Source: Candidatus Fermentibacterales bacterium (GTDB lineage: Bacteria > Fermentibacterota > Fermentibacteria > Fermentibacterales > JAFGKQ01). From it: DNA of 5,018 bases. Of the stretch, positions 623-4,794 are shown in pieces. The stretch is taken from contig JAFGKQ010000184.1 in assembly GCA_016928495.1 (NCBI GenBank), positions 1-5,018 on the forward strand, given 5' to 3'. Position 1 is the stretch's first letter, and every line of letters starts with the position of its first letter. Below the pieces are notes generated by a model. It made no database searches. It worked only from the letters and a program-made list of their open reading frames with translations, and was not told where the DNA came from. The position numbers and the translations under genes are program-made.

Positions 623-2425
623 ATGACGGCGAAGCGACTAATAGGAGCGGCGCTTGTCGCCCCGCTTTCGGTTTCTTGCCTGCTGGTTCTTGCTTCGGGA
701 GCAGCCGACGGCTCGCTCGAACCGCCTTTCCACAAGGACCCCTACCTGCTGTACACGGGGACGATCTCCGAGATGACCGTGCACTGGCAGCTGGACAGCC
801 AGCAGCAGTGCCTGATTGAGTGGGGAACGGACACCACCTACAGCATGGGCAGCGCCCTCACTGACGAGTACACCACGGATCACCTGCACATCCACACGAT
901 CACGGGCCTGACGCCCTCGGTGCACTACTACTACCAGGTCAGCTGCTCCGGATCGGAGATCGAAGGCAACTTCTGGGCCGCACCTTCGACGTCCGCGACG
1001 AACGCGAGCTTCATGGTCTATGGTGACACCAGGACCAACTACATGACGCATGATTCACTGGTTGCCGTCATGGTCGCCCAGTACGAGGTAGATCCCGGCT
1101 TTCAGACGCTATTCCTCCACAGCGGCGACCTCGTCTACACGGGTGGCCTGGAGTCCTCATGGCAGAACGAGTTCTTCAGCGACGAGCAGCTCAATCTGAG
1201 GCAGCTCATGAGGGAGGTGCCGATGGTCGCATGCCTTGGCAACCACGAGCTCTACAGCGACACGGCAATGCACATCGACACTCCGCTGTTCGGGAAGTAC
1301 CTGCCCTATCCCTACGTGGACAGGCGCTACTGGTCCTTCGACTACGGTCCGGCACACTTCGTGATAGCGGACCACTACCCCGAGTATTACGAGCCCTTCG
1401 AACCGGGCGAGATATCGGCGGAGCAACTCGCCTGGATCGAGAGCGATCTGGCGGCGACTTCGAAGCCCTGGAAGTTCGTGATCATCCACGAGCCCGGATG
1501 GTCCTGCGGACCCGTGATTGATGGTGACCCAGCGGCGACTTCGCCGCCCTGGATTTCCGGGATCGTCCGCGAGCCCGGACGGTCCTGCGGAAGACACGCG
1601 AACAACGAGGATGTTCAGAACCTGCTGCAGCCGCTTCTCGAGGCCTATGGCGTCCAGATGCTGTTCACCGGCCACAACCACTACTACTCCCGCGCGAGTG
1701 TGAACGGAGTGCAGCACGTCTCAACAGGAGGAGGAGGCGCTCCGCTGGCCTGGCCCCAGCCGGGCTGGCCCAACATCGTCACCGGGCAACGCAGCTATCA
1801 CTTCTGCCGTGTGGAGATCTCCGGCAACCTTCTTTGCCTGTGTGTGGTCGACATGGCCGGCGAGGTGATCGACAGCGTCTGTGTGAACCTCAACATCCCA
1901 GTGAACTACCTGCTGGGAAGCGTGACGATCGGCAGTGGCCCGGGGAACGTGCAGGATGTCCTCATCGAGGCTGACGGCGAATCCTGCAGCCCTGATCGGA
2001 TTGGCTACTACGGCATGATGCTGGAGCCGGGTACCTACACCGTCACTGCCACGCTGTCCGGCTACACGCCGCAGACCTTCGAGGGAGTCGAGGTCTTCGA
2101 GGAAACCGAGACGACTCTCGACATAGAGATGAACCCGCTCTCGGTAGAGGAGGAAGGTGTCGCCGGGCCGGTGTCGTTGACCTCATCACCCAACCCATTC
2201 TCATCCTCTACCACCATCGACTTCGAGCTGCCCGAGGCGGGACACGTCAGGCTGGACGTCTTCGACATCTCCGGTCGGCTGATCGAAACGTTGGTGGATG
2301 GGGAAATGACGGCGGGGCAGCACTCGGTCGAGATAAACGGGTGCGAGCTCGAAGCAGGGGTCTACCTGTTGGTGATGAGGACGCCTGGCTCGACCGCCTC
2401 CGTCAAGTGCCTTGTTGCCAGGTAG
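623..2425 (+). CDS. T9SS-exported purple acid phosphatase-like metallophosphoesterase with duplicated active-site segment
   Basis: This 600-residue protein is predicted to hydrolyse phosphate esters at the cell surface using a two-metal centre. Residues 1-27 form a signal peptide (MTAKRLIGAAL..., probable cut after ASGA). Residues about 37-121 are the FN3-like N-terminal domain of purple acid phosphatases. The calcineurin-like domain runs from about 130 to 370 with all five motifs: GDTR (D135), GDLVY (D169, Y172), GNHE (N207, H208), IIHEPG (H289) and GHNHYY (H351, H353). Y172 matches the Tyr that ligates Fe(III) in the family. Residues about 432-503 resemble a carboxypeptidase regulatory-like domain (GSVTI..., PGTYTVTATLSGY), and 523-600 form the T9SS sorting domain starting PNPF. 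Ligand spacing follows kidney bean purple acid phosphatase (D135, D164, Y167, N201, H286, H323, H325) except for 27 extra residues between H289 and H351, which an in-frame tandem duplication explains. The physiological substrate is unknown; phosphorus scavenging is a guess. The serine hydrolase gene follows after 40 bases. Confidence 0.93.
   Translation: MTAKRLIGAALVAPLSVSCLLVLASGAADGSLEPPFHKDPYLLYTGTISEMTVHWQLDSQQQCLIEWGTDTTYSMGSALTDEYTTDHLHIHTITGLTPSVHYYYQVSCSGSEIEGNFWAAPSTSATNASFMVYGDTRTNYMTHDSLVAVMVAQYEVDPGFQTLFLHSGDLVYTGGLESSWQNEFFSDEQLNLRQLMREVPMVACLGNHELYSDTAMHIDTPLFGKYLPYPYVDRRYWSFDYGPAHFVIADHYPEYYEPFEPGEISAEQLAWIESDLAATSKPWKFVIIHEPGWSCGPVIDGDPAATSPPWISGIVREPGRSCGRHANNEDVQNLLQPLLEAYGVQMLFTGHNHYYSRASVNGVQHVSTGGGGAPLAWPQPGWPNIVTGQRSYHFCRVEISGNLLCLCVVDMAGEVIDSVCVNLNIPVNYLLGSVTIGSGPGNVQDVLIEADGESCSPDRIGYYGMMLEPGTYTVTATLSGYTPQTFEGVEVFEETETTLDIEMNPLSVEEEGVAGPVSLTSSPNPFSSSTTIDFELPEAGHVRLDVFDISGRLIETLVDGEMTAGQHSVEINGCELEAGVYLLVMRTPGSTASVKCLVAR
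1445..1606 (+). repeat. 81-base in-frame tandem duplication inside the phosphatase gene
   Basis: Copy 1 is 1445-1525 (residues 275-301) and copy 2 is 1526-1606 (residues 302-328). By eye, 54 of the first 66 bases match; the last 15 bases are unrelated. At the protein level D-L-AATS-K-PW...IIHEPGWSCG is followed by D-P-AATS-P-PW...IVREPGRSCG. Copy 1 holds the metal-ligand His (H289). In copy 2 the equivalent position is Arg (R316), but copy 2 continues into the normal downstream sequence including H325. The divergence, mainly amino-acid-changing, shows that the duplication is not brand new or that the copies have been under different constraint. Confidence 0.9.
2189..2422 (+). repeat. T9SS sorting-domain coding segment, copy A
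   Basis: These 78 codons encode the type IX secretion C-terminal domain of the phosphatase, beginning PNPFSSSTT and ending KCLVAR. The segment has exactly the same length, 234 bases, as copy B at 3651-3884 and aligns with it without gaps; about 42 of 78 residues are identical by my count. In known T9SS substrates this domain directs outer-membrane translocation and is usually cleaved. Confidence 0.88.
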
Positions 2426-2465: not shown

Positions 2466-3887
2466 GTGAGAGCATCTGCCGTCTTCGCTATGCTGCTCAC
2501 GGCTGCTGTTGCGGCCGACCCGCCGGATGCCTACGTGGATAGCATCTGCCAGGCCAACAACGTTGCCGGCCTCTCCGCCTGCGCCTTCTACGGAGACTCG
2601 CTGCTCTGGTCCGGCACATACGGCTGCAAGAACTTCTCGTATGCCGACTCGATGGTGAACGAAGAGACCCTCTTCTACCTCTGGTCCGTGACCAAGCCCT
2701 TCAACGCCATAGCTTTCATGCAGCTGTGGGAGGACGGCCTGGTTGACCTCGACGCCGATGTGAACGACTACCTGCCCTGCAGCGTCCGCAATCCCAACTT
2801 CCCGGACACGCCGATCACCCCGAGGATGGTCCTGTGTCACACCTCCAGCCTCCGCGCAGCGGAGCTGCTGCTGCCCGGAGAGCTGGAGGCCGGCGACACC
2901 ACCTACACCAATACGGAATACGTCCAGGAAGTCTACGTTCCCGGCGGGCTCTGGTACGATCCGGTTGCCAACTTCCATACATGGGAACCCGGGACAGGGT
3001 TCGCCTACAACCAGCACCGGGCCCAGGCGGTAATCGCAGCGATCGTGGAGCAGGTCAGCCCTTACTCCGCGATCTACGACCTTCACTGCAGGGAGTACAT
3101 CTTCGACCCGCTGGGAATGGAAGACCCGTCCTACCTGATCGAATCGGTAGATACGATGAACGTAGCGTTGCCCTACCAGTACTCCCACGGTGTGTACTCC
3201 ACCCCTTACGGTTACCCCAGCGCAGCGAACTATGCGGGCTGGATGCTTAAAGCAAGCCCGATGGATCTGTCCCGGGCGCTGATAGCTTTCATGCTGGGAG
3301 GAGAAGCCTACGGGGTGCGGATTCTGGATGATGCCACGGTGGACACCATCATGAAGGTGCAGTACCCCGACCTGAACGCCGACTGGGGCCTGGGCTGGCG
3401 CAAGGAAGAGAACTTCTGGGGAAGCGGACGGACAGTCTGGGGCCATTGGGGCAACAGCATGGCGACCTTCGGCTTCAACGGGATGTTCTTCTGCCCTGAA
3501 GAGAACTCCGCCGTGATCGTGGTCCAGAACTACGGGTCGCCCAGCAACTGCAAGAACATCATGAACGTGCTCTTCGACTACGTAGCGGACCAGACCTGGA
3601 TCGAGGGCGACCCGGTGATGCCGGCGTGGGTCACGCTTCACCAGCCCTGCCCCAACCCGTTCCCGGTCTCAACAACCGTCAGCTTCGAGTTGCCCCAAGC
3701 TGCCGATGTCAGACTGGATGTCTACGACTTCTCGGGCAGGCTTGTGGAGACACTGGTGGACCAGTCTATGACTGCCGGAGAGCATTCCGTTGTGTTTGAT
3801 GGCTCCGGCATGCCCTCGGGCGTCTACCTGCTCAGGCTGCAGAGCGGCTCGGGGGTAGCAACCGCCAGGGTGGTGCTGGTGAGGTAG
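2466..3887 (+). CDS. T9SS-exported serine hydrolase, class C beta-lactamase/esterase family
   Basis: This 473-residue protein belongs to the serine beta-lactamase-like fold (Pfam Beta-lactamase, MEROPS S12 type), whose members include DD-peptidases, D-aminopeptidases, esterases and class C beta-lactamases. The GTG start gives a short signal peptide, MRASAVFAMLLTAAVAA, with a cut before DPPDAY. The catalytic S-x-x-K is S74-V-T-K77 in the context LWSVTKPFNAIAFMQL, followed by the typical LVDLDADVNDYLP and ITPRMVLCHTSSL. The tyrosine motif is at Y181 in PGTGFAYNQHRAQAVIAAIVEQVS, reading Y-N-Q rather than the usual Y-S-N. H-W-G at 327-329 (GHWGN) takes the place of K-T-G, as in many esterase-like members. 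Residues 396-473 are the T9SS sorting domain starting PNPF. Forty bases separate it from the phosphatase gene, so co-transcription is likely. The family does not reveal the substrate; calling it a resistance enzyme would be unsupported. Confidence 0.92.
   Translation: MRASAVFAMLLTAAVAADPPDAYVDSICQANNVAGLSACAFYGDSLLWSGTYGCKNFSYADSMVNEETLFYLWSVTKPFNAIAFMQLWEDGLVDLDADVNDYLPCSVRNPNFPDTPITPRMVLCHTSSLRAAELLLPGELEAGDTTYTNTEYVQEVYVPGGLWYDPVANFHTWEPGTGFAYNQHRAQAVIAAIVEQVSPYSAIYDLHCREYIFDPLGMEDPSYLIESVDTMNVALPYQYSHGVYSTPYGYPSAANYAGWMLKASPMDLSRALIAFMLGGEAYGVRILDDATVDTIMKVQYPDLNADWGLGWRKEENFWGSGRTVWGHWGNSMATFGFNGMFFCPEENSAVIVVQNYGSPSNCKNIMNVLFDYVADQTWIEGDPVMPAWVTLHQPCPNPFPVSTTVSFELPQAADVRLDVYDFSGRLVETLVDQSMTAGEHSVVFDGSGMPSGVYLLRLQSGSGVATARVVLVR
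3651..3884 (+). repeat. T9SS sorting-domain coding segment, copy B
   Basis: These 78 codons end the serine hydrolase, from PNPFPVSTT to VVLVR. The segment is gap-free against copy A in the phosphatase gene, and its second half aligns with the orphan tail at 3891-4013. Such dispersed related segments are possible substrates for recombination. Confidence 0.88.
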
Positions 3888-3890
3888 CCA

Positions 3891-4016
3891 ATGGAGACGG
3901 CGGCAGGGGAGCACTCGGTGGTCTTCGACGGCTCGGGGCTGGCAACCGGTGTCTACCTGGTAAGTCTGCAGTCGGGAGATGGAGTCTCGAGCGAGAAGTG
4001 CATCCTGGTGAGATGA
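3891..4016 (+). pseudogene. Orphan 3' remnant of a third T9SS sorting domain
   Basis: ATG at 3891 to TGA at 4014-4016 encodes 41 residues beginning METAAGEHSVVFDGSG and ending KCILVR. It aligns without gaps with the last 38 residues of the serine hydrolase, with about 25 identities, and also with the phosphatase tail; all three end in a V/A-R. Nothing remains of a catalytic body, signal peptide or first half of the sorting domain, so this cannot be an exported protein. It sits in the same frame as the serine hydrolase, separated only by the TAG and one CCA codon. A GAGG at 3881-3884 could permit weak re-initiation, but a functional peptide is unlikely. Conserved residues are mostly spelled with different synonymous codons from those in the serine hydrolase, so it is not a fresh copy of that tail. 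It looks like the end of a lost neighbouring gene. Confidence 0.8.
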
Positions 4017-4083: not shown

Positions 4084-4794
4084 ATGAAGATAAGAGAAGT
4101 GCCACTTGTCCTTGCCATGCTGGTTGCCATCGCCGGAGCTGCGCAGCTGTTCGAAGACAGTTTCGACGACGGCAATGCCGACGGCTGGACGGAGTACAGC
4201 AACTACCCGGACTCCACCGACTACTATGTGGAGGCAGGCTGGTACCACCTCCTCGTATCCGGCTGCGGCAATGCCAACGTGTTCTCTTTCAACGGAGACA
4301 ACGAAGGCACAACTCCTCATCAGATGTCGATACCCGACTACACTGTCTTCTGCCAGGTTGTGGGATTCTCCCCGACCGATCACGTCGGCGTCGTAGGGAG
4401 GATGTTCACGCCTCTTGCGGATGAAAAGGCATACGTGCTCTGGATGAGGTACAACGCCCAGTCGCTGGAACTGTGGCGGCACGACGGACCAGCGAGCTTC
4501 TCGGCCATCGCAACCTGTGCACTTCCGTTGAGCTACGAACAGGTCTACTGGGTCAGGTTCGACCTGTGGGGTGGCTTGCTCCGCGGCAAGGTCTGGCAGG
4601 GATCGTTCCGGGATGAGCCGGAAGAGTACCTGCTCTCGGCGTACGACACGACTTACCCGGATCCCGGCTCCGTCGGATTCGGGGCTCACAGCTTCGACTA
4701 TGCCACGAACTACGCTGCCTTCGATAGCGTGATGGTCTGCGACCCCCTGAGCCTGGACGCGGGCACCTGGGGAGCGATCAAGTCGAGCTTTTAG
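4084..4794 (+). CDS. Secreted jelly-roll-like (concanavalin/LamG-type) protein, function unknown
   Basis: This 236-residue protein starts with a clear signal peptide: MKIRE, then the hydrophobic VPLVLAMLVAIAGA, with a probable cut after A19 or A20. The mature protein opens with LFEDSFDDGNADGW at residues 22-35, the F-x-D-x-F-x-D-G...W opening common in concanavalin A-like beta-sandwich domains. It continues with alternating beta-strand patterns (YYVEAGWYHLLVSG, YVLWMRYNAQSLELWRH, VYWVRFDLWGGLLRGKVW) and closes with YAAFDSVMV at about 210-218, where such domains typically end. No catalytic motif is visible; ligand or carbohydrate binding would fit the fold but is inference. Unlike its two upstream neighbours it has no T9SS sorting domain. 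Instead it ends in a short linker and the tail TWGAIKSSF. The gene follows the orphan remnant by 67 bases and could share the upstream transcript. Confidence 0.85.
   Translation: MKIREVPLVLAMLVAIAGAAQLFEDSFDDGNADGWTEYSNYPDSTDYYVEAGWYHLLVSGCGNANVFSFNGDNEGTTPHQMSIPDYTVFCQVVGFSPTDHVGVVGRMFTPLADEKAYVLWMRYNAQSLELWRHDGPASFSAIATCALPLSYEQVYWVRFDLWGGLLRGKVWQGSFRDEPEEYLLSAYDTTYPDPGSVGFGAHSFDYATNYAAFDSVMVCDPLSLDAGTWGAIKSSF

Follow-up and report, generated by a model that had tools for sequence, protein, structure and literature searches.

An in-frame tandem duplication at the active-site loop of a purple-acid-phosphatase-like gene from a Candidatus Fermentibacterales bacterium

How much extra loop length can the active site of a purple acid phosphatase (PAP) tolerate? 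This testable question, rather than any new system, is what emerges from a gene in which a segment encoding a metal-ligand motif is followed directly by an altered copy of itself. The window, the whole stretch of 5018 bp that was analysed, is an entire contig (C278) of a draft assembly of 2.3 Mb in 337 contigs that is 81% complete, and the nearest named relative of the genome is Candidatus Fermentibacteraceae bacterium BB12 (L021). The gene lies on the forward strand at 623–2425 (ATG at 623, stop codon at 2423–2425), where the open reading frame, Pfam matches and a profile match to the kidney bean enzyme describe a secreted, purple-acid-phosphatase-like protein of 600 amino acids. A search of the literature gave no publication dealing with a Fermentibacterota phosphatase.

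The protein begins with an N-terminal PAP domain, followed by a metallophosphatase core, a CarboxypepD_reg-like domain, and a C-terminal sorting tail of the Type IX secretion system (T9SS) type. The first two domains score above their cut-offs (PF16656, 31.3 bits against 30; PF00149, 46.7 bits against 21.5), as does the tail in two models (PF18962, Por_Secre_tail, 30.9 bits against 27; TIGR04183, 29.9 bits against 23), and the match to the CarboxypepD_reg-like family (PF13620) scores slightly below its cut-off. With a sorting domain of this kind, the phosphatase would be a predicted cargo of Type IX secretion.

A PAP-like identity, as given in the original prediction, is upheld both by these domains and by a comparison profile built from eight relatives, which matches the kidney bean PAP chains with an E value of about 1e-31 and pairs HePgysagshg with kidney bean HSPLYNSYNHH. 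The metal ligands of the kidney bean enzyme are D135, D164, Y167, N201, H286, H323, and H325 (PMC2267794). From the profile alignment and invariant columns, their counterparts in the window protein are D135 of motif I (codon at 1025–1027), D169, Y172, N207, H289, and the two histidines, H351 and H353, of the motif V GHNH (1670–1681), so that all seven PAP ligands are present, each mapping to one position. The codon of Tyr172 (1136–1138) occupies the position of the charge-transfer tyrosine of PAPs (Y167), a position held by Glu, Met, or Gly in the five closest order-level relatives; among these proteins the classical purple ligand Tyr occurs only in that of the window.

The second shell is less regular. 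Bound sulfate is held in kidney bean PAP by His202, His295, His296, and Asn201, of which His295 is the sole non-invariant residue of the sulfate-binding network, being replaced by Glu in rat (PMC2267794). In the window protein His208 corresponds to His202, and the loop histidine His325 (codon at 1595–1597) aligns with His295 and not with His296, although its place is altered by an insertion: it sits 36 residues after the ligand H289, against a family spacing of nine. Compared with the kidney bean enzyme (PDB 1kbp/2qfp), then, the window protein shares the N-terminal PAP domain, the metallophosphatase core, the seven ligands, and the His202 equivalent, but has 27 extra residues separating the motif-IV ligand His from the second-shell His, lacks a His at the invariant His296 position in the HMM alignment, and adds the CarboxypepD_reg-like and T9SS-type sorting domains.

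The extra residues have their origin in a direct, in-frame repeat with an offset of 81 bases, in agreement with what had been predicted. In a repeat search, positions 1435–1510 (copy 1, encoding IESDLAATSKPWKFVIIHEPGWSCG and carrying the metal-ligand His289) match 1516–1591 (copy 2, encoding IDGDPAATSPPWISGIVREPGRSCG, in which Arg316 replaces the ligand His) at 60 of 76 bases, or 79%. A DNA search recovers the core of this match, 1451–1510 against 1532–1591, at 51 of 60 bases (85%, E 4e-13). Offset 81 gives the top offset score within the phosphatase gene, 37.5, whereas 200 codon shuffles reached at most 15; Tandem Repeats Finder did not detect the duplication. The copies are thus adjacent and direct and match well above chance, relatives have no such doubling, and the tandem duplication is real. 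Its edges are less sharp. As the first 16–21 bases of the unit (1430–1450 against 1511–1531) show a likeness of only 52–56% identity (P about 0.02), exact breakpoints cannot be set and the sure unit is 60 bp. The junction between the high-identity cores, 1511–1531, which encodes PVIDGDP, is possibly a more diverged portion of the copy or else filler. A duplication of 2 x 81 bases had been proposed for 1445–1606; it does lie there, but nothing in copy 1 corresponds to 1592–1606, and the likeness starts at about 1435.

A repeat in a fragmented draft assembly invites the suspicion that an assembly or library artefact fused two versions of the segment. Here that is very unlikely. The longest exact stretch common to the copies is 12 bases, too short to confuse a usual k-mer assembler; the copies differ at 15–21% of sites with the reading frame kept; and neither version was found at another location in the genome. 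Two other origins were rejected: derivation of copy 2 from another genomic site, as only the two in-gene copies match significantly, and a dispersed palindromic element of the Rickettsia palindromic element type, as the many genome-wide copies typical of such an element are absent.

Relative to all relatives, the duplication appears as an insertion of 27 residues (residues 297–323, PVIDGDPAATSPPWISGIVREPGRSCG, encoded by 1511–1591). The spacing from the motif-IV His to GHxH is 62 in the window protein and would be 35 with these residues removed (62 − 27), against 34–39 in six relatives from the same order (L024–L028 and L031); among all homologues listed it ranges from 26 to 47, the values of 26 depending on the His picked by the search pattern. 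Removal of the insert therefore does restore the family spacing, as had been argued, but the arithmetic offered for it (H351 minus 27 gives 324, against 323) is a coincidence, because it compares absolute residue numbers of two different proteins. The Fermentibacterota PAP-like proteins (L024–L028 and L021) have the same domain types, the HEPGWSAG motif, and a T9SS-type tail in common with the window protein and are 44–58% identical to it in the phosphatase part, yet the duplication is found in none of them and their His-to-GHxH spacing is 35–39.

The insertion is thus lineage-specific in the sense first proposed, being absent from every order-level relative found (L024–L028 and L031) as well as from more distant homologues. 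No further carrier of the insert came to light when 42 genomes from the phylum and 60 relatives were searched, a scan of viral contigs for further homologues found none, and plasmid homologues of the phosphatase are remote. Since the family to which the window belongs (f1) consists of this genome alone, with the closest relative compared at about 58% identity, the age of the insertion is bounded only by divergence at the level of the order.

Which of the two copies has kept the ancestral sequence can be judged against these relatives. Copy 1 matches them at 16–18 of 26 residues and copy 2 at 9–12. At 10 of the 11 amino-acid differences between the copies, the residue of copy 1 is found in relatives; that of copy 2 is found at one, where that of copy 1 occurs too, and at none does copy 2 alone agree with them. 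Positions of copy 1 that are invariant in relatives include W271, L276, K284, H289, and W293. Between the copies dN is 0.29 and dS 0.25, giving a dN/dS of about 1, and differences are spread over the three codon positions (5/7/6). GC content by codon position is likewise flat in copy 2 (0.65/0.69/0.69) compared with the whole gene (0.59/0.44/0.81). These patterns indicate that copy 1 stayed constrained and that copy 2 is a degenerate copy, changed without constraint and now serving as filler or spacer.

This bears directly on the proposal that the ancestral segment had been divided between the copies, with the ligand His in the first and a histidine nine residues further on in the second. The residues named (H289, R316, H325, and H351) are as given, the ligand His does lie in copy 1 with Arg at its place in copy 2, and the insertion does fall at the active-site loop. 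The division itself does not hold: the conserved segment is present entire in copy 1, and copy 2 has decayed to a spacer. H325 does follow copy 2, but it was not kept by that copy, for it falls a little beyond the end of the repeat, in the sequence RHANNEDVQ that followed the segment ancestrally. In place of a split motif, the order is better described as motif IV, intact in copy 1, then a 27-residue insert, and then RHANNEDVQ with H325.

What the insertion does to the enzyme is a more difficult matter. The reading we favor, and consider probable, is an in-frame duplication in which copy 1 remained constrained and copy 2 became a 27-residue spacer in a still-working phosphatase. The duplication, in frame, in tandem, and of an ordinary kind (offset 81 bp, 60–76 bp recognizable), would have arisen inside the gene for a secreted purple-acid-phosphatase-like protein after the window lineage split from the sequenced relatives of its order. 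Copy 1, under continued selection, would supply the motif-IV ligand H289, so that a complete seven-ligand site is encoded, and copy 2, freed from constraint, would have become a spacer that separates the ligand His from the second-shell His. The spacer would stand in a loop already variable in length among relatives (SAG-GAALHPDNN, SAG-GTGHVYNN, SAG-SPYFPENN, and SAG-GHSNEK), where active-site loop length differs by up to 4–5 residues even among close ones. Such an enzyme would be expected still to bind metals and hydrolyze phosphate esters, and the spacer would form an additional loop, probably a flexible one, at the edge of the substrate pocket, mainly altering access or substrate positioning. 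AlphaFold models from two and three sequences, with pLDDT values of 38 and 51 and of near 30 in the insert, are too low in confidence for distances to be taken from them.

The insert is placed directly within the substrate-contact loop, in which His295 and His296 of the kidney bean enzyme contact bound sulfate (PMC2267794), and it might instead disable the enzyme by pulling the second-shell His 27 residues away, leaving a phosphatase that is dead or decaying. The absence of synonymous differences in the core also means that the duplication may be recent, too early for other decay to show, so that an intact frame would tell little about continued function. Loss of function is nonetheless unlikely, given that 600 codons are open, that the seven metal ligands and His208 are kept, and that copy 1 is conserved. 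Moreover, the displaced histidine is missing in L021 and L027 and shifted in L024–L026, in genes that look intact, so that moving it would not necessarily be harmful.

The gene represents a clear natural case in which a catalytic segment was duplicated and one copy has remained constrained as the adjoining copy drifted, yielding a long insert bordering a metal site. A different possibility is that positive selection turned copy 2 into a new lid or a specificity-determining loop. It draws on the 60-bp core, where all nine differences are non-synonymous and none is synonymous, and on the behavior of other enzymes altered by in-frame duplications in active-site loops, as in the KPC beta-lactamases (PMC12593533). 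The excess is not significant, however (P 0.1 by Fisher test, 0.23 by simulation), and dN/dS over the longer repeat is about 1, making such selection rather improbable. Among the KPC enzymes, 42 variants carry tandem insertions of 3–84 bp, attributed by the authors to replication slippage (PMC12593533), so that the type of event is already known. The two cases have in common an in-frame tandem duplication (3–84 bp in KPC) in an enzyme gene, many of those in KPC falling in active-site loops, but the KPC copies are recent and drug-selected, whereas the window copy is 15–21% diverged, lies in a phosphatase, and is under no known selection.

A further feature of copy 2 is that its core (1532–1591) is predicted to form two stable RNA hairpins that copy 1 does not form, the first with 7-base arms (GCGGCGA/TCGCCGC, 1532–1547) and the second with a 15-bp stem within 1555–1591. 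Copy 2 has a predicted fold energy of −33.7 kcal/mol and copy 1 one of −21.5, which makes copy 2 the lowest-energy region of the gene and places it in the top 0.3% of 60-base windows of the genome and the top 0.6% of GC-matched ones; its shuffle z-score is −3.1. Only 0.33% of random placements of the nine substitutions fold as well (P about 0.003, post hoc). Two changes, A to G and T to C at the paired positions 1565 and 1580, preserve one stem pair, and AA to CC at 1544–1545 completes the palindrome GCGGCGA-CT-TCGCCGC. In the predicted fold, eight of the nine substituted bases pair, including one pair formed between two of them; since about 70% of all bases are paired, that count alone is unremarkable.

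Such observations could mean that the hairpins matter, whether through an RNA- or DNA-level action (pausing, or the insert being bypassed or removed) or as products of template switching at imperfect palindromes. The pattern was noticed post hoc, however, the hairpin segment had no match in Rfam, and the insert is open in frame so that its removal is not required; a role for the hairpins accordingly seems remote. A one-step template switch as the source of all changes in copy 2 was rejected, as unchanged bases pair G–U and were not template-replaced. More specifically, the decayed copy might be a selected RNA or DNA hairpin element, with the insert, which is flanked by matching GGA codons, paused at, skipped, or removed during expression; this is scarcely to be expected, but if true, at least some of the protein made would regain the ancestral active-site loop.

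Repeats elsewhere in the genome were surveyed in 100 of its own contigs (677 kb, three reading N) and the window, with classes judged by eye; by this judgment the remaining strong tandem repeats fall in repeat proteins, low-complexity sequence, CRISPR-like arrays, or non-coding DNA, and only the phosphatase of the window has a single extra copy inside a globular enzyme domain. One contig (C2, L054:9270–9588) has a coding tandem array with a period of 117 bp and units 84% alike. Another (C41, L091:15185–15895) has repeated units reading GSPPPARGT/RFTPAHAGTT with variable spacers; read here as protein, they resemble a palindromic-repeat or CRISPR-like array.

Within the window, the phosphatase gene is followed at 2466–3887 by a gene for a protein of the serine beta-lactamase/esterase family (PF00144) with a sorting tail like that of the phosphatase, so that two secreted hydrolases are encoded side by side. 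At 4084–4794 is encoded a 236-residue protein that has an apparent signal peptide and matches no family in Pfam or NCBIfam. Directly 3' of the stop codon of the beta-lactamase-family gene, an orphan sorting-tail fragment (3888–4016; ATG at 3891, about 41 codons, ending in CILVR and a stop) resembles the final part of that gene (72% identity, offset 129) and reads as the remnant of another tandem duplication.
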